Shown here one piece after another: positions 37,961 through 55,809 of a stretch of 59,182 bases of DNA. How positions within the stretch are numbered: the stretch's first letter is position 1; every line of letters begins with the position of its first letter. The stretch is from NCBI GenBank assembly GCA_949299165.1, contig CASFZJ010000015.1, positions 1 to 59,182 on the forward strand. Direction: 5' to 3'. The position numbers and the translations under genes were made by a program. The stretch is from an uncultured bacterium. GTDB lineage: Bacteria; Bacillota_I; Bacilli_A; RFN20; CAG-826. Below the pieces are notes generated by a model. The model did no database searches. It was not told the DNA's origin and saw nothing but the letters and a program-made list of their open reading frames with translations.

Positions 37961-39031
37961 ATGAACAATTTAGAGATTATTTCACTTGTTGTAACGATAG
38001 TTTGTCTTGTTTCATTTTCGGCAGTATTTACTGTTTTATTTAGACATTACTACAATTCAAATATTGATTCGATAAACAAGGGAAATGATGATCTAGATTT
38101 ATTAAATAACGCTTTAGAAATTGAAAAGGCTAAAACAGATAAAAAAAAGAAAGCATTAAAAATTGTTTCTAAATCTGTTTCATATCTTATATTTGCGATT
38201 ATCTTAGTTTTCTTTGGTTTTTCACTCTACTCAAGATTTAGTGGTAACACAATGCCATTTGGAAATACATCTCTTGTAGTAATCGCAAGTGGTTCGATGA
38301 GTGAGAAAAATGAAGATAATACTTACTTAGCTAATTTAAATAATCAATTTAATACTTATGACATTATTGGAATTAGTAAATATGATAATCAAAGTGATGT
38401 AAATTTATATGATGTTGTTGCTTTTAAAAATGAAGATGGTACAACGATTATTCATAGAATTATTGAAGTAGAAGAAGTAAATGGTGAAACTGTTTATATC
38501 ACTCGTGGCGACTCAAATAATGTAAGTGATAATGGTTCTCAATATGAAGATTACTTACATTATGAAAATATAATTGGCTATTATAACGGAACACGTATTC
38601 AAACTCTTGGAATATTTGTTATCTTCCTTCAATCAAATGCAGGAATCATTACAATTATTGCAATCGGTTATTGTCTATTTATGTTTGATTACTATAACAA
38701 CAAATTTGAGAACGCTGTTAATGATAGAACAAGTAAAATTATCGAAGCACTTGAATTCAGTTTAAGTGATGATCCTAAAAAAGTTAAACTTCTAAACACT
38801 GAAACTCTTATCTATAACGATAAGAAAGTTAACTTCTTAAATGGTGAATATTTATATGAAGTTTCGCCTCTTACTGAAGAAGATAAAATCGAATTTGAAA
38901 AATGTGAAAATTTCATTAATTCTCAAAAAATAGTTGAGAATTGCAAGGATTTAGATAAAAAAGAAAATTATTTTCAAAAAACTTTTTCAAAATTTAAGAA
39001 GAAATTTTTTGAAAATAATAAAGAAAAATAA
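37961..39031 (+). CDS. sipW: Signal peptidase I, SipW (ER) type
   Basis: A 356-residue membrane peptidase of the ER/SipW type, with Ser112 in VIASGSMSEKN and His165 in TTIIHRIIEV (a Ser/His/Asp set instead of Ser/Lys), then YITRGDSNNVSD. An N-terminal helix, a second helix before the active site and a third after it (IFVIFLQSNAGIITIIAIGY) leave a long charged cytoplasmic tail of ~120 residues. It should process the six proteins of this locus with [GS]-F-x-x-[WF] signals. Confidence 0.88.
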   Translation: MNNLEIISLVVTIVCLVSFSAVFTVLFRHYYNSNIDSINKGNDDLDLLNNALEIEKAKTDKKKKALKIVSKSVSYLIFAIILVFFGFSLYSRFSGNTMPFGNTSLVVIASGSMSEKNEDNTYLANLNNQFNTYDIIGISKYDNQSDVNLYDVVAFKNEDGTTIIHRIIEVEEVNGETVYITRGDSNNVSDNGSQYEDYLHYENIIGYYNGTRIQTLGIFVIFLQSNAGIITIIAIGYCLFMFDYYNNKFENAVNDRTSKIIEALEFSLSDDPKKVKLLNTETLIYNDKKVNFLNGEYLYEVSPLTEEDKIEFEKCENFINSQKIVENCKDLDKKENYFQKTFSKFKKKFFENNKEK

Positions 39032-43116: not shown

Positions 43117-44726
43117 TGATTATTGATCTAGTTAGAAAAGAAGTTATTCAAAATCGTACGAATAATGATACTTCATTGATTCGTAAGTTTTTGCTTGCTA
43201 TTTTAAAACTAGTGGGCGTTGGACTTTTTGTTGCGCTTGAAGTATTTATTTATATCTCTCTCGACAACAAAGTTAACGCTAATTCTAACTATGGATCATT
43301 TGACTTTTTAGTTTTATTTTTGTTCTTAACCCTTCTAATCTCAACTATTTTTACGGCTTTAAAGGGTAGAAAGATATTTTTTAACAAAGAAGATTTAACT
43401 GTTTTGTCTCCTCTTCCAATTCAAAAAGGAGAAGTAGTATTTTCAAAAGTGTTATATCTTTATATATATGAAACAATTATTTCAATTTGCATCTCTTCAC
43501 CTCTTTTAGTGACTTATTTTGTTTTACATGGTTTCTTACCTCCATTCTATGTTTTAGGTGTTGTTTATGGAGCACTTATTTCTTTATTTGGAATTGGCAT
43601 TTCAATGCTTTTAACAGTTATATTTGAATTTGTTTATCATTTACTCAAAGTTTCAGATATTGCTCAATTTATTCTTGCTTCAGTAGTAGTTGTTTTACTT
43701 TGTTTTGCTTATCAAGTTGTTTTAAATCTTTTCCTTGATGCATTAAATAACAATGAAGGAACTGGAATGCTTTCTGAATCACTTATCACTTTAGTTCATC
43801 AAACATCAGTTGGTTTACTTCCAATTTATACTTTGCTTGATCCAATTTGTAATAATGGAGTGAATTTAGCAAGTGGGGTATGTATTACTTTTGGTATGAT
43901 TTTACTATCACTTTTAATTTGTGCATTTGTTTCTTCTTTTTCATATAGTTACATTAACTCCCATAACTTTGAACTCAAGATTACAAAAGTTAAGAATAGA
44001 AACAATTTAGTTATCTCGCCATTTAAAGCTTTGATAAAAAAAGAGTTCTCATTACTCTTTAAAGATTCATCTTATACTTTCTCTTATACCTCGCTTTTAA
44101 TTATGGCTCCATTCTTATCTTTTGTTGTCATTTCCTCACTAAACTCAATTATTTATCAAAATTTAAGATATTTTAGTGTTTATTTCCCTGACCTTGTCAA
44201 TGGACTTAACATTTGTTTAATTTTATTATTCTCAAGTGTTATTAACGCCAGTGCTTCACAATCCATAACGCGTGAAAACAAAGCACTTCAAATTGTTAAA
44301 TACATTCCAGTTAATCCAATTAAACAAGTTATTGCTAAAGTTTTGATGCCAATTATTTTATCAAGTGTATCTTTATTTATTACTCTCATTGTCTTAATCG
44401 CAACTCAAAATATCGATTACAAAGTTTTCTTAATCTCCTTGTTTGTTGGACTTATTCTTATTGTTGTTACAACTGTTTTAGGTCTTTATCTTGATATGTA
44501 TGACAAGAGTGACACCGAACTTAAACTCAGTTTCATCAATAATTTAATTTCAATTCTTTTCCCTATTGTTATTTTATTAATTCACTTTGGAATTTCTTTA
44601 ACAAGAATTGATACGATGTATATTTATATTGCAGAAGCGGTTACAGCTTCTTTGCTTCTTATACCTATTTTCATCAAACCTAAAAAGGTATGGACAAAAG
44701 TCTTTAGAAAAATGGAGGTAGAATAA
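43116..44726 (+). CDS. ABC-2-type transporter permease
   Basis: A 536-residue integral membrane protein with about twelve hydrophobic segments in two halves and a central polar region (SHNFELKITKVKNRNN, then ALIKKEFSLLFKDSS, which mirrors the start of ABC-2 permeases). It pairs with the ATPase just upstream through a TAATG overlap. The cargo is unknown; proteins or envelope components of the surface locus are the natural guess. Confidence 0.85.
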   Translation: MIIDLVRKEVIQNRTNNDTSLIRKFLLAILKLVGVGLFVALEVFIYISLDNKVNANSNYGSFDFLVLFLFLTLLISTIFTALKGRKIFFNKEDLTVLSPLPIQKGEVVFSKVLYLYIYETIISICISSPLLVTYFVLHGFLPPFYVLGVVYGALISLFGIGISMLLTVIFEFVYHLLKVSDIAQFILASVVVVLLCFAYQVVLNLFLDALNNNEGTGMLSESLITLVHQTSVGLLPIYTLLDPICNNGVNLASGVCITFGMILLSLLICAFVSSFSYSYINSHNFELKITKVKNRNNLVISPFKALIKKEFSLLFKDSSYTFSYTSLLIMAPFLSFVVISSLNSIIYQNLRYFSVYFPDLVNGLNICLILLFSSVINASASQSITRENKALQIVKYIPVNPIKQVIAKVLMPIILSSVSLFITLIVLIATQNIDYKVFLISLFVGLILIVVTTVLGLYLDMYDKSDTELKLSFINNLISILFPIVILLIHFGISLTRIDTMYIYIAEAVTASLLLIPIFIKPKKVWTKVFRKMEVE

Positions 44727-47239
44727 TGCGAAAGAAAACATTAGTTATTTTACTTATTATTCCTTTTGTTATTGCACTTTTAACTTTTGTTAGTGTAGTT
44801 GCCCTTACGAATAGTGTTGCAGTAGACATTGAAGGCATTAATATCCTTAATTTCAGAGACAATGAAGGTTTTAAAATTAATGGTGAATATAAATTAGAAG
44901 CTGAAATTACTTATTCTAATAACGGAAACTCTTTACTTAAACCAGGAGCAGATGAGCTTGTTTGGTCAATAACTAACACGAGCGAAGACTTTACAGATGA
45001 TGTTGCAACTATAGAAGAAAAAGATGATGGCTTCTATCTTAAAACCGGCTCAAGTGAAGGAAGCTGTAGATTGGTTTGCGCAAATTCTATTGGATCAAAA
45101 AGTGATTATATTGAAGCTCATATTTATGATAAAGGTGTTATTTTAATTAACCCACATGCTTCAAATAGTGGCAGTCAAATTGATCCTATTAGATATTTTG
45201 GGGAAAGTGATTTTGTTTATGATGGGAGCGGAAACGTAAGAAAACAAAATGCTCAAATTCCACTTGATATTGAAGTCATAAGCGATGTTGGAACCAATGC
45301 TTATACTTTTGAAACTTCACCAAATATTAGCTTTTCTAGGGATAATTCAACAATTACAGTTAATGGAGAGGGAGAATCTTTTGTAAAATTTGAAGCTCAA
45401 GGTGCAAGTTATATTAACAACACTTACAAATTTAATGTAGTCGATAATGGCGTAAACGTTTATTCATTTGATGATTTGATGAACTGCACAAATAAATCAC
45501 AAACTGGTGAAGTTGTAGTTATGCAAGTTAATCTTCAATCAAGAGATAATACGTTAAATAAAGATAGTAATGGAAATTATTTAGATAGTTACAAAAATAC
45601 AAATACAAAACTATTTGGAAATTATGATTTCAGAAATCAAACTTTCAATTTTAACGATTTTATCTATTATGAAGATCCAAAAATTGAAGCAAAATACATT
45701 CACCAATTTTTAGAACAAACAGAAAATTCAAATAACTATGATTATCAAACTCAACTTAAAGTTGGTGTAAGAGTTCAAAAAGATTTCTATGGTAATGGAT
45801 TTACAATTAATATGCATGAACTTGCTTATCCAGTTCATGGAAGACTTGATAATACTACAGGTATTTTCTCACCAGACAGAAATTTAGATTATTTCTTTGG
45901 TCCATTAACTTTTGTTTCAATTGGTGATTTAGAACAAATGCCTATTATTAGAGCATATCTTTGCGACAATATTGGTTTTGCTTTAGACGGAAACAACTTA
46001 ACAGTGAATGATGTTAAACTTCAAAATGCAAATAATGTTGATAACATGTATAACCTTCGTTTTACTGGTACAGTATTAGAAGTTCAAGGAACAAATAACA
46101 CTATTGAAAATTCCGTCATTCAAAACGGAAGAACTTGTATCAGAGCTTTCTCTAGTGATGGACTTTTAATTGATAATTGCTTACTTCAAAATGCTGGTGA
46201 ATTTATCGTTAAACTTGGAAGCAACGAAGTCAATCTAGTTGACCACAATAAACAAGTAACTGTAAATTACAATGGACAAGAAATTACAAAATCATTTGAT
46301 GATTTTTATAACGGTTCTGCAGAGGATTTAACGACAGCTAATGGAATTTTATCAGATTCTATTACAAAAACATTTAGTGCAGCGGGAGTAGATTCGATTG
46401 TTAAAACACTAGAAGAAATTCAAAGTGGTTTAGATAACTTAAAAGGAATTTTAGATAGTGAAGGTAATCCAATTTTTGATGCACATATCACAATTAACAA
46501 TACTTACTTCTATAATAGTGGTATTTACTCAATTGCTTTTGAAAATAGTTTTAATGGTGCGTATTTATATAATGGAATGCCTTCTCAAGTTCAACAAATT
46601 TTACAAGCATTAGGTGCTGTTTCGCCATTAGAAATTGGTGGCACTGCACATCCTGTTGAATTAACTTTAACAGGTGATACAAGATTCTACGATTGGAAAA
46701 ATATTGATGATATTGATGCAGGAGCACTTATTGAAGAAAACATTAGTTCATTAGCTTCATCACTTGATGTTCCTGAATTAGGAGATATCTTATCTGATTT
46801 ATCAATTGATGATTATTTCCCAATGAAAACTATCTTAAAAAGATACGCAATTGATCACAATTTGACCTATAAAGTTGATAAGGATGGCGTGACAAACTAT
46901 TACGTTAATAGGCCATTTGCTTGGTATGGTGGCGGCTATAATGGTTCAAAATTAATCAATAATATCGATGGAAATGATTATAGTGTCTTCAGTGAAGAAA
47001 TCGAAGTTAATTTGCCAAGAGAAGTTTATTCGAAAGCACTTGGTGGATTAAATCCGGATGACATGGAAGGTACATTATTAACTGTTGTTAATTTGCTTTC
47101 TAGATGTGTTGTTATGGCAACTGGTTCTCATCCATTTAAATTCATGACTAATGGAACAATAGTCAATAATGAGAAACCTGCATTATTTGATGAAGTTCCA
47201 TCTTATTTAGATTTAAGTTCAAGAAATGCGAGGAATTGA
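44726..47239 (+). CDS. Exported parallel beta-helix protein
   Basis: An 837-residue protein with an N-terminal membrane segment (LVILLIIPFVIALLTFVSVVAL), an Ig-like or Big-type domain (residues ~35-130: ELVWSITNTSEDFTDDVATI), then right-handed beta-helix-like repeats (NNTIENSVIQNGRTCIRAF, LLIDNCLLQNAGEF, HITINNTYFYNSGIYSIAF). No sortase motif. The gene overlaps the permease gene (TAATG), so it is part of the same machine; it may be a surface scaffold or substrate of the ABC transporter. Confidence 0.72.
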   Translation: MRKKTLVILLIIPFVIALLTFVSVVALTNSVAVDIEGINILNFRDNEGFKINGEYKLEAEITYSNNGNSLLKPGADELVWSITNTSEDFTDDVATIEEKDDGFYLKTGSSEGSCRLVCANSIGSKSDYIEAHIYDKGVILINPHASNSGSQIDPIRYFGESDFVYDGSGNVRKQNAQIPLDIEVISDVGTNAYTFETSPNISFSRDNSTITVNGEGESFVKFEAQGASYINNTYKFNVVDNGVNVYSFDDLMNCTNKSQTGEVVVMQVNLQSRDNTLNKDSNGNYLDSYKNTNTKLFGNYDFRNQTFNFNDFIYYEDPKIEAKYIHQFLEQTENSNNYDYQTQLKVGVRVQKDFYGNGFTINMHELAYPVHGRLDNTTGIFSPDRNLDYFFGPLTFVSIGDLEQMPIIRAYLCDNIGFALDGNNLTVNDVKLQNANNVDNMYNLRFTGTVLEVQGTNNTIENSVIQNGRTCIRAFSSDGLLIDNCLLQNAGEFIVKLGSNEVNLVDHNKQVTVNYNGQEITKSFDDFYNGSAEDLTTANGILSDSITKTFSAAGVDSIVKTLEEIQSGLDNLKGILDSEGNPIFDAHITINNTYFYNSGIYSIAFENSFNGAYLYNGMPSQVQQILQALGAVSPLEIGGTAHPVELTLTGDTRFYDWKNIDDIDAGALIEENISSLASSLDVPELGDILSDLSIDDYFPMKTILKRYAIDHNLTYKVDKDGVTNYYVNRPFAWYGGGYNGSKLINNIDGNDYSVFSEEIEVNLPREVYSKALGGLNPDDMEGTLLTVVNLLSRCVVMATGSHPFKFMTNGTIVNNEKPALFDEVPSYLDLSSRNARN

Positions 47240-47241
47240 AT

Positions 47242-48369
47242 ATGAAAAGAGGATTTTTTAAGAAAAGTAAAATTTTAATAGGATCTTTAGTTCTTTTATC
47301 TAGTTTGACTTTTGCAACATCATGTTCTGCCTTTTTTGGTGGCAATGAATATGCAATTGCAAATGTAACTCAAACAACGGATGAAACAACCGGAGATACT
47401 GTTGTTACAATTGAATTCCAAGATGAAAATGTTCAACCTTTGAATTTTACAATTCCTGCTGCCGGTCTTGATGGAACTGGGATTGCAGATATAAGTGCGA
47501 CAACTAATGAAGGGGTTGTAACTTTAACTATTAGTTATACTGATCCAAATAAAGAAAATACAGTAATTAGTGTTCCTGTTATTAAAGGAGACAATGGCTT
47601 AGGTATTCAAAATGTAGTAGTAGATAACGATGATGAAGGCAATATGACTCTTCAATTTGCTTATACTGATGGTTCTGCATCACCGGTTTATACAATACCA
47701 AAAGGAATTGATGGAAAAGACGGAACCGGTATTAAGGAAATAAGAACAGAAAGACTAACAACTGGAACAACTATTATTACTATTACTTTTGATGATGAAA
47801 CATTACAACCTGTAACTTTTCCTGTAAATGATGGTGTTTCGATTACAGATGTTACTTACGATCCGGAAAATTCAACAGATTTAACATATAGAGTAGTTAT
47901 TACTTTAAGTAATGGCGAAACAAGAGAATTAGACTTTCCAGCTCCTCGAATTGCAACATGGTTAAGCGGTACAACTGTTCCAAATAATGAAATAGGGAGA
48001 GTTGGGGATTTTTATTTAAATATGATTACTGGCGATGTTTATACTAAGTTAACTACTGATAGTTGGAGTTACTTATTTTGTATTAAAGGAACTGGTGCAA
48101 GCCAAGAAATTGTAAAACATAGCGTGGTTTTTAATCTAAGAGATGATGAAGTAGTTGAGAATTTAAAACCAGGAAGTCAAATTCTTGTAAGAGTAGATGA
48201 TGGTGAAACTTTATTATTAGAAGATATTCCTGTTCCTACAAAAGATGGATGCGAATTTGTTGGATGGTTTGCTGGAGAAGATGAAAGCAACCCAAATATC
48301 GGTCAAATTACAAATTTGACTGTTATAAGTAACGATTTAAATCTATTTGCTAGATGGAGAGCTATTTAG
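47242..48369 (+). CDS. Lipoprotein with Gly-rich short repeats and C-terminal InlB-type B-repeat
   Basis: A 375-residue lipoprotein: signal with FATSC lipobox near 30, then tandem ~70-residue beta-modules separated by Gly-rich links (GLDGTGIADI, GDNGLGIQNV, GIDGKDGTGIKEI), and finally a Listeria-Bacteroides (InlB) B-repeat ending CEFVGWFAGE...NLFARWRAI. I chose the ATG at 47242 with GAGG eight bases upstream rather than a TTG at 47236. Last gene of the block; its end overlaps by 8 bp with the convergent Hint-protein gene. Confidence 0.78.
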   Translation: MKRGFFKKSKILIGSLVLLSSLTFATSCSAFFGGNEYAIANVTQTTDETTGDTVVTIEFQDENVQPLNFTIPAAGLDGTGIADISATTNEGVVTLTISYTDPNKENTVISVPVIKGDNGLGIQNVVVDNDDEGNMTLQFAYTDGSASPVYTIPKGIDGKDGTGIKEIRTERLTTGTTIITITFDDETLQPVTFPVNDGVSITDVTYDPENSTDLTYRVVITLSNGETRELDFPAPRIATWLSGTTVPNNEIGRVGDFYLNMITGDVYTKLTTDSWSYLFCIKGTGASQEIVKHSVVFNLRDDEVVENLKPGSQILVRVDDGETLLLEDIPVPTKDGCEFVGWFAGEDESNPNIGQITNLTVISNDLNLFARWRAI

Positions 48370-50779
48370 AACCTGTTATTTTGTCTATTTCAATGTGGCC
48401 AAGAGATTTATATTCTTTTAATAAATCTAAATAAGAGCACAATTCTGCAATAGATGTTTTATTTTCAGAAACTAATGCTTTATAGTACTTAAGATTAAAC
48501 GCATTATAAACGTAATTTGAAAAATATGGTTTTAAGTCTGCGTATTTAAAAATTCCATATTTGTTAACGCTTTCTAAAATTTCTTCTTGATTATATATTA
48601 ATTTTTCATCGTATGAATATAGATTATAAAGCGAGTGAAGAACATTCGTAACATTAAGCAAATTATTTGCGACGCAATTAAATGATGAATAAGTAATAAT
48701 TGTATATGAATTAGTTATTTTTTCTTCTCCTTTTACTTTTAATAGTTTGACTTTTTTTAATTTATTTTCGTTAAATATAGCAAATTCCTTTCCGAGATAT
48801 AGCTTATAATTATTTTTATTTATTGATACATATTTTTTTTCATCAAAACAAAATAAGCCATGTTCTTGTACTATCCCGAATGAAATATCTTGAGTAAACT
48901 CTAAGAGAATATGGAAATATTTATTTAAACCATGATTTATTTTAACAGCAACAGGTTGGAAATTTAATTTCCCTGTAAAGTGATCGTAAGCAAGAACCAA
49001 ATCATTCTCGTGAATGAATTTAATGTTTACTTTTCCTTTATTGGTCAATAAAGTGGTATTTTCATCAAAACATCCCAAAAGGTCCATGACATTAAATTTG
49101 CCTGATGAAGATGATTTGTTTTCTTCTGGAATTTGATTTGATTTCGTTCCAAACCATACTCCGTTATTATTTGATGTATAATTAGTCGAATTTAAAAAAA
49201 CATTCTCACTTGGATTAGAAAATTCTTGATTATCGGAAATCGAACCATATGCATTCCCAGAAATATTAATGTACGAGTAATCAATGTCTCCTAAATGAAA
49301 TAAATCTGTTTTCATATTTGCTGTTATAAGTTCTTGGGAGATAGCGTTAGTGGACGCAGAAGACGAGATAACAATAAGAGAGTTGCCTATATTACTTGTG
49401 ATTTTGCCTGCAAAATTGGAATTTATATTTACTATGCCGTTATTTACTAATGAAGCTTGTGGTACGGCCTTTGGATAAATAGTACTATTTGTGGCATAAG
49501 TTACTTCGTCAATGTAATTTATATAAAAATATGATAAATTATTTATGTTTAATGTTGCACTAGGATTGACAGTATAAGTGGCGCCGGCAAGAAATTTAAC
49601 TTTGTTATCTATACTTGTAATACCTGATAATTGGTGAATCTGAAATTTATAACTGAATGGTACGATAAAATCAGCAGTATTAACATCTAGACGACCAGCC
49701 AAAGTAAGTTGAGCTGAAGAGAATGATATGTCGCCATTCAGGTTTATTTTGGTTGTATTTAAACTACTAATAGGGGTATCACTTCGTACATCATTTGTAG
49801 TATAACCAAAGTTGCTTTCTGATGGTGTATATTTCATTGAAACTTCACCAGAATTAATCTTAAAAATTGCGTTTGTAGCACCAATTAAATTTAGATTAGT
49901 TGTTTGAACTCCAGCACCAATACCTTTTAATCCATCAGAATACATGCTTACAGTAGTGTTAAACTTAGATAGGCTATCAAAATTCATTTTGACTTGAGAA
50001 TTAGGAAAATCGAAAATGTTAAAAGGCATTATTTTTTGGTAATATGCTGACAAAGCATAAGTAGCCCCTCTAAAGTCATATATACATAGAGGCAAATTCA
50101 TTGACGCATTAGAGCCTATATTATTAATAAAAGGTTGTGTTATATCATCTATATCGTGTCTATTTTTTGATTTGATGTATCCATAACAAGTGATATTTCC
50201 CTTATTGGTAATCTGACTTCCGTCAGACATTAATAATTCGATATAACTTCCAGTTGTATGGCCAGTAGGTCTTTGCCTTGATCCCGATACTGATGTGCCT
50301 AAAATTCCGCCAATATAAATAGTACCATTATTAATAAGATGTGCCTTTTCATTAAGAGTTACCAAGTTCTTTCTATTTGCTTTAACTAAACTTTCATTTC
50401 CATCAGCAAAATTATCGTTTTTTATCGTATCTCTACTCTCATCTTCCCACGTAGTACCTTCATAAGGGAATATTAAAGTATCGTTTTCTGCTACAGTACA
50501 TTCTCCTGTAATAGTAGGTTCGGAACCAGGAATAACATAAATAGTATTATTTGCAGGATCTTTTTCAGCAACATCTAATGCTTTTTCAATAGTAGTGTAT
50601 TTAATGGTTTCTTGGTCTTTAATGTAAGCAACAGGCTTTGTATCTTTTTTATCAGAACTTGCTATACCAAAATCTTTTGATTGTGATTTCGTTTTCCATG
50701 ATGAGAAACCTAAAGATGGCAGAGCAACAGCAGTAGTAATAAATGCACAAGATATAAATAACTTTGTATTTTTATTCAT
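48362..50779 (-). CDS. Left alternative surface protein: SipW-type signal, beta-helix-like body, C-terminal Hint domain
   Basis: An 805-residue exported protein. The signal contains GFSSW (24-28). An N-terminal module (YTTIEKALDVAEKD, TIYVIPGSEPTI) starts a long strand-rich body. From Cys570 a Hint (hedgehog/intein-like) domain begins, CFDENTTLLTNKGKVNI, with a block-B-like His in IVQEHGLFCF and a C-terminal NCVANN block. A ~90-residue tail follows (SVNKYGIFKYADLKPYF). The right-hand protein (52873) has the same layout and related head and tail. Hint domains self-cleave or form esters, so it probably processes itself at the surface. A GGAG site precedes the ATG. Confidence 0.78.
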   Translation of the reverse strand: MNKNTKLFISCAFITTAVALPSLGFSSWKTKSQSKDFGIASSDKKDTKPVAYIKDQETIKYTTIEKALDVAEKDPANNTIYVIPGSEPTITGECTVAENDTLIFPYEGTTWEDESRDTIKNDNFADGNESLVKANRKNLVTLNEKAHLINNGTIYIGGILGTSVSGSRQRPTGHTTGSYIELLMSDGSQITNKGNITCYGYIKSKNRHDIDDITQPFINNIGSNASMNLPLCIYDFRGATYALSAYYQKIMPFNIFDFPNSQVKMNFDSLSKFNTTVSMYSDGLKGIGAGVQTTNLNLIGATNAIFKINSGEVSMKYTPSESNFGYTTNDVRSDTPISSLNTTKINLNGDISFSSAQLTLAGRLDVNTADFIVPFSYKFQIHQLSGITSIDNKVKFLAGATYTVNPSATLNINNLSYFYINYIDEVTYATNSTIYPKAVPQASLVNNGIVNINSNFAGKITSNIGNSLIVISSSASTNAISQELITANMKTDLFHLGDIDYSYINISGNAYGSISDNQEFSNPSENVFLNSTNYTSNNNGVWFGTKSNQIPEENKSSSSGKFNVMDLLGCFDENTTLLTNKGKVNIKFIHENDLVLAYDHFTGKLNFQPVAVKINHGLNKYFHILLEFTQDISFGIVQEHGLFCFDEKKYVSINKNNYKLYLGKEFAIFNENKLKKVKLLKVKGEEKITNSYTIITYSSFNCVANNLLNVTNVLHSLYNLYSYDEKLIYNQEEILESVNKYGIFKYADLKPYFSNYVYNAFNLKYYKALVSENKTSIAELCSYLDLLKEYKSLGHIEIDKITGSK

Positions 50780-50781
50780 AA

Positions 50782-51414
50782 TTAGTTAATCTCCGCTTGA
50801 ATTCTAAAGAAAAGGCCATTGTTACCAATCTTTGAATAAATTTGATTGTTAAAATCACTTAATACACTAGAAAAATCAAAAAAGAATTTAAAAGAATAGT
50901 AAATTGTATTGATATTTTGATCAGTAAAATTAATTAAAGATAAATTAAAGTTTAAATTTGTACTCTCGATAGTGTAAGTTAATGTATTCGAAAAATCTTG
51001 TGCTTCAGTATTTAATGATTCAGAATATGTTGCTGGATTAGTTGATGAAAAATAATTAAAAATTGAGAAATTCTGGTCGGTTGTACAAATATTTCTTATC
51101 GTACATTTTAACGTTTTGGTAGAAGTCGATTCTAATCGAGTTAATAATTTTTGGAAATTTTCAATTCGAAAACTTATAACAACGTCGCCATAACTTACTA
51201 TAGTTTCATCATCTATTGGACCGGTTGGACAAAATTCAAAAAAATCGACTTGATCGTTGTATTTAATGTAATCGTTTAAAACTAAAGCGTTACCGGTTTG
51301 AATGTTAGCATTAAATACTTCAGCACCAGTTAAAGTCCAACTACAAAATCCTACGCTAAGTAGTGAAAGCGATAATAAAGGTACTATAGTCAAATATAAA
51401 CTTTTTGTTTTCAT
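50782..51414 (-). CDS. Left small TasA-like protein
   Basis: A 210-residue exported protein with a SipW-type signal (GFCSW 22-26) and a mature domain starting AEVFNANIQTGNALVL, like the N-terminus of TasA/camelysin. It contains FFEFCPTGPIDDETIVSYGD, comparable with FGFCHNGFVKDGKLTETGL in the right-hand counterpart (52277). It lies 2 bp upstream of the Hint-protein gene. The palindromic site 51431-51446 lies 17 bp upstream of its ATG. No clear ribosome binding site or promoter is seen immediately upstream. Confidence 0.75.
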   Translation of the reverse strand: MKTKSLYLTIVPLLSLSLLSVGFCSWTLTGAEVFNANIQTGNALVLNDYIKYNDQVDFFEFCPTGPIDDETIVSYGDVVISFRIENFQKLLTRLESTSTKTLKCTIRNICTTDQNFSIFNYFSSTNPATYSESLNTEAQDFSNTLTYTIESTNLNFNLSLINFTDQNINTIYYSFKFFFDFSSVLSDFNNQIYSKIGNNGLFFRIQAEIN

Positions 51415-51430
51415 TTATACTTAAAAGTCT

Positions 51431-51446
51431 AGAAAAGTATACTTTT
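51431..51446. repeat. Left recombination/operator site AGAAAAGTATACTTTT
   Basis: Contains the perfect 14-bp palindrome AAAAGTATACTTTT (51433-51446). An identical 16-mer is at 52255-52270. The two copies flank the recombinase gene and each sits immediately upstream of a TasA-like gene. Confidence 0.75.
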
Positions 51447-51610
51447 ACGCACTTTTTAAATTTTTTACACTCGTTTTTGGTAAGATGATTGCATATTACT
51501 ATAACTTCACTTTAAATTCTCATAGATAAAATAATGATAATATTTATGCTTAATAAACAAATAACTTTTTTATTTCATAAAATTAATTGAAACGAAACTT
51601 GGAGGTAATT

Positions 51611-52204
51611 ATGGAATACGCATATATAAGAGTTTCTTCAACGACACAAAATATTGGACGTCAGTTTGAAGAATTAAAAAAACTAGGTATCGACGAAAAG
51701 AATATGTTTATTGATAAAGAATCAGGTAAAGATTTTAACAGAAAATACTATAAGAAACTTATAAAAAAGATTAAAGAAAATGATGTAATTTACATCAAAT
51801 CAATCGATAGATTAGGCAGAAATTACGATGAAATAGGTAATCAATGGAAGTTAATAACTAAAATAAAGAAGGCTGATATTGTTGTTATCGATATGCCGTT
51901 ACTTGATACAAGAAATAGACCAGATAATTTGATTGGCAAATTTATCTCTGATATTATTTTACAATTACTTTCGTTTATTGCCGAAAACGAAAGAAATAAT
52001 ATTAAAGAACGACAAGCGGAAGGCATTAAACTTGCTCATGAAAGAGGTATAAAGTTCGGCAGACCACCTTTTAAAATAACCGAAGAATTTGCTAATGATG
52101 TCATAAAATTTAATAAAAAAGAATTAGATTTACGAAGTATTTTAGCAAAACACAAGATTTCTAAAACATCTTTTTATAAATACAAATCGTTAGCTCTCTT
52201 ATAA
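51611..52204 (+). CDS. Small serine recombinase (resolvase/invertase family)
   Basis: A 197-residue site-specific recombinase: YIRVSS with nucleophile Ser9, SIDRLGRNYDE with catalytic Arg67 and Arg70, ENERNNIKERQAEGI long helix E, and GRPPFKITEEF followed by a Hin-like helix-turn-helix (LAKHKISKTSFYKYK). Size and layout match Hin/Gin invertases and Tn3 resolvases. I chose the ATG at 51611, which has GGAGGT upstream; a TTG at 51587 is unlikely. It sits between two divergent surface operons and between identical palindromes, so its likely substrate is this very segment. Confidence 0.88.
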   Translation: MEYAYIRVSSTTQNIGRQFEELKKLGIDEKNMFIDKESGKDFNRKYYKKLIKKIKENDVIYIKSIDRLGRNYDEIGNQWKLITKIKKADIVVIDMPLLDTRNRPDNLIGKFISDIILQLLSFIAENERNNIKERQAEGIKLAHERGIKFGRPPFKITEEFANDVIKFNKKELDLRSILAKHKISKTSFYKYKSLALL

Positions 52205-52221
52205 AGATTATATCTTTATAA
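52199..52221 (+). other. Perfect 10-bp stem-loop overlapping the recombinase stop
   Basis: TTATAAAGAT (52199-52208) and ATCTTTATAA (52212-52221) with a 3-nt loop. No T-tract follows, so it is a weak terminator at best. As DNA it could be an accessory binding site for the recombinase. Confidence 0.5.
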
Positions 52222-52234
52222 AGCATTAAATTCG

Positions 52235-52243
52235 TGATAAAAT
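52235..52243 (+). promoter_or_regulatory. Extended -10 promoter inside the flanked segment, pointing right
   Basis: TGATAAAAT in the context ATTCGTGATAAAATA. The same context precedes the ABC gene at 57007 (ATTCATGATAAAATA), supporting it as a promoter form used by this organism. It lies 13 bp inside the right palindrome and would drive 52277-55809. Inversion of the segment would point it at the left operon. Confidence 0.55.
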
Positions 52244-52254
52244 AGTTTTCGTTA

Positions 52255-52270
52255 AGAAAAGTATACTTTT
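52255..52270. repeat. Right recombination/operator site AGAAAAGTATACTTTT
   Basis: Identical to 51431-51446, ending six bases before the ATG of the right TasA-like gene. The two sites are 824 bp apart. Confidence 0.75.
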
Positions 52271-52276
52271 TTGGTT

Positions 52277-52876
52277 ATGTTTAAAAAGAGATTTCACCAT
52301 TTTATAACAGCATTATTGCCTCTAACGTTTATAACGCTAGGTTTTTCAACTTTTTCGATTGCGGAAAACGCATTAAATAAAAATTTTGACATTGAAACTC
52401 AAACTGGCTCTTTTAGTTCTTTTTTATTTGAAAGGAAGAGCGCAACAATTTTTGGTTTTTGCCATAATGGTTTCGTAAAAGACGGGAAATTGACGGAAAC
52501 GGGACTCATTACCTATTATTTAGATTTAGATCTAAGCAAAATTAATACTGAAGATTATGTGAAAAATAATGATCTTGTATTGCAAGCTGAACTAATAGAA
52601 ACTGGAATTGCAAATTTTATATCTAATGAGCGTTTAGTAAATACTAGAGTTTTGTTTTTGGGGAAAGAGCAATTAGGTTCTAATCAACTTTCGGACAATA
52701 CTATCTTGTCATCTTTTGTATTAACAGGTGTTGACCAACAAAGTGTAATATCTATTGATCTGATTTATGAATTTAAACTAACAGAAACAGATAATTGTTT
52801 AAATTTGTATAATCTAATGTCGAATTATAATTCTCCGACAAGATTTGATTTGGGAGCGAATATTTTAAAATTATGA
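52277..52876 (+). CDS. Right small TasA-like protein
   Basis: A 199-residue exported protein, counterpart of the left one: signal with GFSTF (22-26) and a mature start ENALNKNFDIETQTGSF, resembling TasA/camelysin. I chose the ATG at 52277 over a TTG at 52271. No ribosome binding site is visible, as in the left counterpart, which is notable because most genes here have one. It overlaps the next gene by the four bases ATGA. Transcription from 52243 seems likely in the present orientation. Confidence 0.72.
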   Translation: MFKKRFHHFITALLPLTFITLGFSTFSIAENALNKNFDIETQTGSFSSFLFERKSATIFGFCHNGFVKDGKLTETGLITYYLDLDLSKINTEDYVKNNDLVLQAELIETGIANFISNERLVNTRVLFLGKEQLGSNQLSDNTILSSFVLTGVDQQSVISIDLIYEFKLTETDNCLNLYNLMSNYNSPTRFDLGANILKL

Positions 52877-55809
52877 AAAGAAATTTATTTCTTAAGATAA
52901 TGTTATTTTTTGTTACTTTGATATTATGTATACCAATTAGTTTTTCGGCTTTTATCGTTAATCAAGTTCAATCCGAAACTATAAAACCTACATATGAAAA
53001 TACCGGATATGTTTGTTATAACAAAAACACAGGTCAAAAATATACAAAAATTAACGCTGCTCTTTCAGATGCTAAAAATGGGGATTTTGTTTATTTAGTT
53101 TCAGGAACGCCTGATAAACCATCGATAATTAATTGCAACGAAGATTTATTAATAGAAGAAGGTGTTACGTTTATTATCCCTTACTTGAATGAAGAATATA
53201 TAAATAGTGATTTTTCTAAAGCTAAAGTTGATGCAATTTTAACAACAACATTAAACATTTATGGTGATATAACTATTGAGGGAAGACTTATTTTAGGAGG
53301 CGGAGTTTATCTACGTGGATTAGGAGGAAATTATTCTAAATTATCTCTGTCTGATAAAAGTCAGATTAACGTATGTGATGGTGGGCTTTTTGAATGTTAT
53401 GGGGTGGTTAATGAAATAAATCCTAATAATAATGGATCCAAAACCGAAATAAGCGGCAAGAATTTAATTGGTGATAATGGTGTTTATGATAATTCAAATG
53501 ATTTAGATAGACTAATCCATCTAGAATACGGCAGCCAACTCATAACGACTTTTTATAATGAAAATATGTCTAATTCAGGGACTGAATTAAAATCTCTTCT
53601 TGAAAATCTTGTATGCCCATTTAATTTATATACTTTTAATAACTTACAAACTTATGTAAAAATCGACTATGGTGCAAAACTTTTAACTAAAATTCGTTTT
53701 AGTTTTAGCGGAGTTAACGTTGATGAAAATGTCGAACTTGTTACAGCGAATGGTCTGTTTAGAATAAAAGATGTTAACTCCTACATGGGTATAGAATATT
53801 GCAATTCATCGTTAACAAGGTTATACATTTTCGGAAATTTGGATGTCGGGAAAATTATTTTGGAACTTCCGTCGTATGCAAATATAGTATTCGGAACAAA
53901 TATCATTGATACTTCAAATTATTTTCTTCCTTTGCATTACAAATTTAACCTTTTTACATTCGGAAATGGTGTGGTAAATGTTCCTTATAATGTAAAACTT
54001 TTACCGGGTGCAGTTTTCAAAATAGGGAGTGGAACTAATGTGATTATCGGAGATAATGCTGGCGTTAGTGTTTTTTCTGGTGGTACTTTTGCTTGGCAAT
54101 CCACAGGAGTTGATTATGGTAATATTAATAAAGATGCACTTTTAATTAATAATGGTTCCTTAATTTTAAATGCTGATACCTCAAAATTAGGTGGAAAAAT
54201 ATTAACTGAGTCAACGGATGAAACCGCGATTGTTGATGTCTCAAGAATCACTGATCAAAATAGTTTTACTCTTACAACAATAGAAGGTAAAAATACTAGT
54301 CAAACAGCTACTACAATTTGCAATGCAGATTTTGTGATAGATGATGCAATTCTATCTAAAAATGTAAAAGCCGGAACAATCTTGAAGTCAAATAATTGTT
54401 TGATTAATAACAAGGCTTCTTTTGTAGGCGACTTTGTTGATGTAAATACAATTTCAGTTAACGTAGTTGCAACTGATTATAAATATAAGGTTATCAGTTA
54501 TAGAGTCTATGTTTCTAATGTTGAGAATCCAGCTGCTTCAGAAATGCAGTTAATTTCTACTGAATCCGAAACTACATCTAAATCATTTACCATTGGTAGT
54601 GATCAATATTTCTTAATTGACGTTGATTCCAGAGTCAAAAATATAGAAATCACGAATCCAAAAGGCGAAATTTATGTTGCAAATAAGTGGCTTAAAGCGA
54701 AAGATTTATCGATTAATATAACTCCTAACGAGGGGGTAGCAGTAGCGTTCTATACTACTTCTGTTAGAGGAGCAGGCGCAATGCTTTATGAAGTTTTTGA
54801 ATCATTAGATAACGGAAATAATTTTATTTCATTAGGCAAAAAAGAAACAGGGCCAGATAATAGATTTATTTTAGTAAAAGGTGCTAAGTTTTATGCTGTG
54901 GAAAGTCATAATAATTCTGCAATGGGTTATTATATAAAGAAGGATGTATCAAAATATTTAATTTCGGAAGATGTCATTATATTACCTCAAGTTGTTGATG
55001 ATAACGTTATTATTAACACTGGCCAAATTTTTGATTTCGGAAGTTCGTTTGTTTATGAGGCGACTAATTCTTATACAATTTATTATAAAGGAACTTCTAA
55101 AAATGATATTTGCTTTGATTCAGATACAATTATTCAAACATCATTTAAAGAAAGTAAAAAAGTTAAGGACTTAAAAACCGATGATAAAATTCTTACATAC
55201 AATCATTACAGCGGAAAATTTGAAGAAAAAGAGATTCTTTCTTTAATCAAGCATCCTAAACAATATACAAATCATTTATTACTGAAATTTGAAAACGGAA
55301 ATTGTCTTGATGTCATCGGTTCGCATGAGTTATTTATGATTGAAGATAGAAAATATATTGATATTAATTATTTAAATGTAGAAAGTTTAATTGGTAAATA
55401 TTTTGGTGTTTATGAAAACGGTAAATTCGGGAAGGTAAAGCTTATTGACTATGATACTTATTCGAAATTTGATTATTCTTATTCACTTATATCTAGATAT
55501 AATTTAAACACAATATCAAATAATTTTATAAGCATGACTCCAAATATTGAAGGAACTCATAATTATTTTGAATTAGATGAAAACTTTAATATTATTAAAG
55601 AAAAAATGATTAGTGATATTAACAAATATGGACTTTATTATTATGAAGATTTCGAAAATTTGGTAAGTAAAGAAATATTTGATTATTTTAATTTTAAATA
55701 TTTCAAGGTTTCGATTGGTAAAGGGTTAATGACTTACGAAGAACTTTTATCCTATATATCTGATTTTAATTCTCTTGTTAATGATGGAAGTTGGGAAGGA
55801 ACAAATTAG
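52873..55809 (+). CDS. Right alternative surface protein: signal, strand-rich body, C-terminal Hint domain
   Basis: A 978-residue exported protein with a degenerate SipW-type signal (SFSAF 23-27). Its head (YTKINAALSDAKNGD, VYLVSGTPDKPSII) is clearly related to that of the left Hint protein. A strand-rich body follows. From Cys747 a Hint domain begins (CFDSDTIIQTSFKESKKVKD) with His in VIGSHELFMI, ending with a tail (INKYGLYYYEDFENLVSKEI) homologous to the left one. The body in between is quite different, as expected for antigenic alternatives. No membrane anchor or sortase motif. Confidence 0.78.
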   Translation: MKRNLFLKIMLFFVTLILCIPISFSAFIVNQVQSETIKPTYENTGYVCYNKNTGQKYTKINAALSDAKNGDFVYLVSGTPDKPSIINCNEDLLIEEGVTFIIPYLNEEYINSDFSKAKVDAILTTTLNIYGDITIEGRLILGGGVYLRGLGGNYSKLSLSDKSQINVCDGGLFECYGVVNEINPNNNGSKTEISGKNLIGDNGVYDNSNDLDRLIHLEYGSQLITTFYNENMSNSGTELKSLLENLVCPFNLYTFNNLQTYVKIDYGAKLLTKIRFSFSGVNVDENVELVTANGLFRIKDVNSYMGIEYCNSSLTRLYIFGNLDVGKIILELPSYANIVFGTNIIDTSNYFLPLHYKFNLFTFGNGVVNVPYNVKLLPGAVFKIGSGTNVIIGDNAGVSVFSGGTFAWQSTGVDYGNINKDALLINNGSLILNADTSKLGGKILTESTDETAIVDVSRITDQNSFTLTTIEGKNTSQTATTICNADFVIDDAILSKNVKAGTILKSNNCLINNKASFVGDFVDVNTISVNVVATDYKYKVISYRVYVSNVENPAASEMQLISTESETTSKSFTIGSDQYFLIDVDSRVKNIEITNPKGEIYVANKWLKAKDLSINITPNEGVAVAFYTTSVRGAGAMLYEVFESLDNGNNFISLGKKETGPDNRFILVKGAKFYAVESHNNSAMGYYIKKDVSKYLISEDVIILPQVVDDNVIINTGQIFDFGSSFVYEATNSYTIYYKGTSKNDICFDSDTIIQTSFKESKKVKDLKTDDKILTYNHYSGKFEEKEILSLIKHPKQYTNHLLLKFENGNCLDVIGSHELFMIEDRKYIDINYLNVESLIGKYFGVYENGKFGKVKLIDYDTYSKFDYSYSLISRYNLNTISNNFISMTPNIEGTHNYFELDENFNIIKEKMISDINKYGLYYYEDFENLVSKEIFDYFNFKYFKVSIGKGLMTYEELLSYISDFNSLVNDGSWEGTN

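Follow-up and report, generated by a model that had tools for sequence, protein, structure and literature searches.

We observed in a contig of 59 182 nt from an uncultured bacterium (this whole stretch of DNA is called the window below) a compact locus that is very likely a self-inverting cassette of the Hin kind. A segment of 824 bp (51440–52263), delimited by in silico inversion and by comparative evidence, carries a recombinase gene together with a promoter and would switch the surface operons that flank it. The first-pass annotation had proposed a self-inverting switch at this place as a candidate; the proposal is supported by the layout and the sites seen in sister species, by a promoter present at one end only, by alternative joints of the promoter end in one related genome (G008) and by the varying facing of the cassette among species. 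In our view the locus is genuine and probably functions as a DNA switch, in which the choice of a surface protein would be made by flipping.

The cassette lies between two divergent operons, each with a small gene next to the cassette and a large gene behind it. In the left operon (minus strand) these genes encode a predicted small secreted protein of 210 aa (50782–51414) and a large predicted surface protein of 805 aa (48362–50779); in the right operon (plus strand) the predicted products are a small secreted protein of 199 aa (52277–52876) and a large surface protein of 978 aa (52873–55809). Both large proteins carry a putative C-terminal Hint-like domain.

The sole gene between the two palindromes that end the cassette runs from an ATG at 51611 to a stop codon at 52204 (plus strand) and encodes a Sin/Tn552-like serine recombinase of 197 aa. 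With 91.5 bits against PF00239 (cut-off 23.3; E = 7e-26) the protein belongs to the small serine recombinases. Among solved structures it is closest to Sin and Tn552 bin3 (E = 2.4e-27), and an alignment with Sin shows that its RVSS and SIDRLGRN motifs are kept; the DNA-invertase chains 4m6f and 3uj3 were matched far more weakly (E = 6e-9 and 2e-8, respectively). Thus, in sequence the enzyme is related to the Sin/beta group and is not close to the Hin/Gin group, although the layout of the latter, with inverted sites on the flanks, was found in four species (the repeats being inverted in G008 and G007). Plasmid-borne relatives of the recombinase are 48–58% identical to it. The equivalog model of the Mpi family gave 42.6 bits, far under its cut-off of 272.

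The identical 16-mers AGAAAAGTATACTTTT that had been reported to bracket the recombinase gene are exact; they occupy 51431–51446 and 52255–52270, and each holds the 14-bp palindrome AAAAGTATACTTTT. We take the palindromes as the left recombination site (51433–51446, the E5 end of the cassette) and the right recombination site (52257–52270, the E3 end, on the 3′ side of the recombinase gene), with crossovers that would fall at 51439/51440 and 52263/52264. The window holds 20 perfect palindromes of 14 bp or longer, of which these two make the only identical pair. A pattern search over the 1.43-Mb genome found the exact 14-mer in two copies only, both at the cassette ends. With up to two mismatches allowed, the genome contains 99 matches as compared with 79 for a reversed control pattern, i.e. 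near the control level. As the exact site occurs just twice and mismatched copies are hardly above the control, we rejected a genome-wide multi-site system similar to that of Mpi.

The first-pass annotation had warned that the sites might be direct repeats, in which case excision would be favored. In the window the match between the two sites is 16 bp long in direct and 14 bp long in inverted register; since they are nearly symmetric, their orientation cannot be read from their sequence. A cassette of another nature could therefore be thought of: an excisable or mobile element, either deleted as a circle or inserted at GTATAC in front of surface operons. The longer match in direct register, the symmetry of the central AT and the fact that the Sin/Tn552 relatives are resolvases rather than invertases would all agree with such an element. 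We nevertheless regard it as very improbable, given what was observed in related genomes.

Orthologues of the recombinase were searched for in the genus (26 genomes) and in the family (224 genomes); they were found in four other congeners and in 14 genomes from other genera. In three of the congeners (G008, G022 and G007) the gene resides beside the same conserved neighbor genes, referred to below as anchor genes, between divergent surface operons, and GTATAC-centred sites, the counterparts of those in the window, are present at both cassette ends. In the fourth one (G002) the recombinase frame contains a stop codon and the context is different. The half-sites on the gene side are mostly TACATTTATG, while those on the cassette side differ; as a result, the sites of G008 are identical over 22 bp as an inverted repeat, TTTCATAAATGTATACTTTTTT, and over just 7 bp in direct register. 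In G007 a 21-bp inverted repeat compares with 13 bp in direct register. These repeats fix the inverted orientation in the two species and, as far as sequence comparison can tell, point to inversion rather than excision. Hence the worry about direct sites is answered in the relatives, though not by the near-symmetric sites of the window itself. Moreover, six recombinase-less congeners yielded no empty site, which speaks against an excisable or inserting element. In the leaders of both operons of G007 (L046), both outer arms, GTATACATTTATGAACTTTTA, hold an ATG followed by a nearby stop codon ahead of the operon start; possibly, this is a tiny leader ORF, or it may be merely a part of the half-site. 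A search for the same species in the other orientation gave two distant relatives only among genome contigs and none among viral contigs.

To characterize the cassette ends, we scored sigma-70-type promoters in outward direction over the final 75 bp that precede each crossover; random 75-mers drawn from these loci served as the background (95th percentile, 7.6). At the E3 end the scores were 7.9 in the window, 7.7 in G008, 9.7 in G022 and 7.7 in G007; at the E5 end they were 2.6, 3.3, 6.3 and 0.8, respectively. Thus, in four out of four species the E3 end is high and the E5 end is low. The promoter predicted in the window (52215–52243, plus strand) consists of TTTATA, a spacer of 17 nt and a TG-extended TAAAAT. 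The rightward promoter-like sequence noticed earlier inside the segment, TGATAAAAT at 52235–52243, 13 bp ahead of the right palindrome, was borne out by this analysis, with the -35-like hexamer TTTATA added 17 bp upstream. In silico inversion places this promoter before the left operon and removes it from the right one, exactly as had been anticipated. Across the species the -10 element ends 10–21 bp short of the crossover, so transcription should begin just before the site.

The one-sided promoter also bears on a simpler explanation, that the palindromes are plain operators at which the recombinase-like protein, or some other regulator, controls both operons with no recombination involved. 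Symmetric sites do adjoin start codons on both sides (6 bp past the right palindrome and 18 bp past the left one), and small serine recombinases can double as autoregulators. Still, the left end has no promoter, which leaves an operator nothing there to control, and the inverted repeats of 21–22 bp in relatives are asymmetric. Together with the joints in G008, described below, this makes the explanation quite improbable.

The mechanism we propose for the self-inverting cassette is as follows. The cassette comprises the Sin/Tn552-type recombinase gene and a single outward promoter at its 3′ end (E3). The recombinase would cut both ends at the centre of GTATAC, presumably with a 2-bp stagger, and rejoin them in reverse; staggered cuts of 2 bp are what small serine recombinases make. 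The promoter half (…GTAT) would thus be connected to either of the divergent operons, at its leader and start region, and the operon apart from E3 would be silent, so that expression of the two should be mutually exclusive. With the cassette oriented as it is now, we predict the right operon to be ON and the left one to be OFF; an inversion, if it is active in the window's own species, would swap these states. Extra sites in front of further operons, as in G022, could let this one promoter act on more than two operons.

Joints of the kind expected from such a reaction were observed in G008, an 80%-complete metagenome-assembled genome (MAG). Its recombinase contig (C28) has the half-site ...AAAAAAGTATA as its exact end. 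C10 and C61 are two further contigs that start with the same last 127 bp of the cassette and part from each other at the very next base; the shared length of 127 bp suggests the k-mer overlap of the assembler. Beyond the site C10 encodes a small protein of 212 aa and then a Hint-like protein of 1115 aa, while C61 encodes a small protein of 209 aa and a Hint-like protein of 796 aa, followed by an anchor gene in convergent orientation. The left operon of the window has its orthologue in the C61 operon (39% identity for the small proteins and 45% over 806 columns for the large ones). The left-type operon is therefore on E5 in the window and on E3 in C61, which means that the promoter end in G008 is joined to two different surface operons, of which one has the sense opposite to that of the window. 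The joining of one promoter end to different operons indicates that the bacterium probably picks its surface protein by flipping. The plain-operator explanation, raised as an alternative in the first-pass annotation, accounts neither for an assembly fork located exactly at the site nor for a promoter end found with two operons; with the promoterless E5 unexplained as well, we disfavor it. Two insertions of a mobile element would be a less probable account of the G008 joints, as a single E5 joint was found.

A different possibility is that recombination in the past produced the differences among species and strains, and that the cassette is now inactive or rarely active, its arrangement being effectively fixed. 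A single arrangement was assembled in the window, in G007 and in G022. The two copies of the G008 anchor gene, in C28 and C61, are 84% identical, which is compatible with separate strains; as, in addition, a single partner was found for E5, a mixture of strains or a duplicated locus in G008 is inseparable from flipping within a clone. In the same population, the one with two alternative joints, the C28 recombinase gene (L044) has an in-frame TGA, so flipping in G008 either requires another copy or belongs to the past; that copy may be inactive now. On the other hand, the 127 bp at the two joints are 100% identical while the neighboring genes differ by 16%, an observation that a mere mixture of old strains would not readily explain. 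In addition, the recombinase gene is uninterrupted in the window, G007 and G022, and both cassette ends have retained the site core. We consider a fixed arrangement unlikely.

The orientation of the cassette can be judged against the anchor genes, which encode proteins of 837 and 377 aa (44726–48369, plus strand, in the window) and represent a conserved chromosomal flank. In the window and in G008 contig C28 the anchor genes lie towards E5; in G007, G022 and G008 contig C61 they lie towards E3. With respect to the anchor genes, then, the cassette faces different ways across species. In the six recombinase-less congeners examined, the surface genes come after the anchor genes in co-linear order, and GTATAC sites were not seen at the starts of their operons. 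Thus, the switch arrangement and the sites occur together. The 837-aa anchor protein has a paralogue in the genome of the window (G000:C6:35009-37291, 35% identity). In another congener (G014:C2, ∼176027; L124) a sequence match falls inside a giant gene, an open frame reported as 24683 aa long.

In G022 (L045, 11376–14340) we saw a third site, located before a third operon of a small and a big gene that converges on the right operon. The third site is inverted with respect to the right site and direct with respect to the left one. An inversion between the right site and the third one would place the third operon next to the promoter, and the G022 locus could in this way exceed a two-way switch. 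The earlier description of a switch between two operons needs a correction here, in that the number of operons served may be more than two. The leader of the third operon resembles that of the right operon over ∼45 bp.

The nature of the switched proteins is less certain than the layout of their genes. The mirror-symmetric order reported at first, with a Hint protein and a small TasA-like protein on either side of the recombinase, stood as far as the order is concerned, and the label 'TasA-like' did not. The N-terminus of the small proteins carries a signal similar to the SipW-dependent type; no match to any Pfam or NCBIfam model, TasA/camelysin included, was found for them, and a fold search with a small protein (model pLDDT 64) gave weak pilin-like matches only (best E-value 6e-3). 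TasA membership thus found no support. A gene for a SipW-like signal peptidase is present in the window (38165–38689, plus strand; TIGR02228 above cut-off), and further SipW-like copies reside in the same genome (G000:C6, C21 and C2). As to the large proteins, the 978-aa protein matches PF01079 with 19.9 bits, under the cut-off of 29.7; Cys570, His640 and Asn705/706 are invariant in four homologues, and the two large proteins are 29% identical across the domain. On the strength of the sub-threshold Pfam match and the conserved Cys, His and Asn we call the domain common to both proteins Hint-like. The predicted model of the 805-aa protein (pLDDT 48) was too poor for a fold search.

Outside the genus the recombinase orthologue is often divergent, beside type III or type I-like methylase/restriction genes, an Eco57I-type methylase, an EAL gene or a C-lectin/GLUG protein. 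In these genera a site like CGAAAnnGTACCTTTTGAG is located ∼80–110 bp before the recombinase gene, with an inverted partner ∼60–150 bp further up. For ten loci the summed best inverted match was 135, while the maximum among 300 sets of dinucleotide shuffles was 123 and the direct match was 121; not all of the single loci were significant. In eight loci (L048, L050, L052, L053, L054, L058, L059 and L061) an inverted pair of GTAC-type sites encloses a short putative promoter upstream of the recombinase orthologue; located beside restriction-modification (R-M) or surface operons, these loci are candidates for a group of phase-variable R-M promoters. In one of them (L054, G159:C48) a run of Ns fills exactly the space between the half-sites, ∼130–75 bp upstream of the recombinase gene. 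This would fit an assembler unable to pick an orientation; masking by operators is an alternative. From this comparison, the wider group would seem to flip a short promoter, and the recombinase gene may have come inside the flipped segment in the genus of the window. A more far-reaching version of our proposal, to which we give even chances, is that the locus is a switchable expression site, in which inversion at half-sites could activate two, three or more operons of small secreted and Hedgehog-like Hint proteins, a promoter-moving shufflon with a Sin-type recombinase derived from a family that flips R-M promoters of ∼60–150 bp.

Among known systems, Hin/fljBA of Salmonella has the recombinase gene and an outward promoter inside a segment between inverted sites (PMC9368917; PMC5903667). 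The architecture of the window matches this one, with inversion connecting or disconnecting a promoter and a surface-protein operon. However, Hin serves one operon (fljBA) and affects the other flagellin via a repressor, whereas the cassette described here has an operon at each end and its enzyme is nearer to Sin/Tn552 than to the Hin/Gin group. For the beta recombinase, both inversion and resolution have been reported, according to the titles of works by Canosa et al. cited in PMC8493755 and PMC2428073. Sin, Tn552 Bin and beta are the best sequence match to the window enzyme; the known Sin/beta members mostly resolve plasmids or transposons with the help of accessory sites, whereas the sites in the window flank a promoter cassette between surface operons.

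In Campylobacter fetus one promoter is joined to alternative sapA surface genes by inversion, through homologous recombination. In Mycoplasma (vsp/vpma) and Ureaplasma (mba/UU376) inversion joins one promoter or 5′ region to alternative surface genes (PMC3047005), with candidate recombinases of the tyrosine type in Ureaplasma (PMC3599477). These systems share with the window the logic of a single promoter, including oppositely oriented genes, and differ from it in that their genes are non-Hint and the recombinase lies outside the cassette, the Ureaplasma enzymes being encoded elsewhere. Bacteroides Mpi, a serine recombinase, and gut invertons invert promoters at short inverted repeats near surface genes (PMC5903667; PMC11892184); Mpi acts at many genomic sites, unlike the recombinase of the window, whose exact site is confined to the cassette ends and whose score is far under the Mpi cut-off. 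In the open-licence papers searched we did not find a cassette that unites a Sin-type recombinase with a promoter, has an operon on either side and serves surface proteins of the Hint type.

If the proposed switch is true, the half-site logic, with the promoter half inside and the start-region half outside, offers a simple rule for locating similar loci in MAGs, and short-read assemblies may be interrupted at such switches. Promoter flipping would be extended to Sin/Tn552-type recombinases, which are usually regarded as plasmid or transposon resolvases, and surface variation would be linked to a wider recombinase group that apparently flips short R-M promoters. Uncultured bacteria of this family would then carry a compact, self-contained switch determining which putatively autoprocessing surface protein is displayed.
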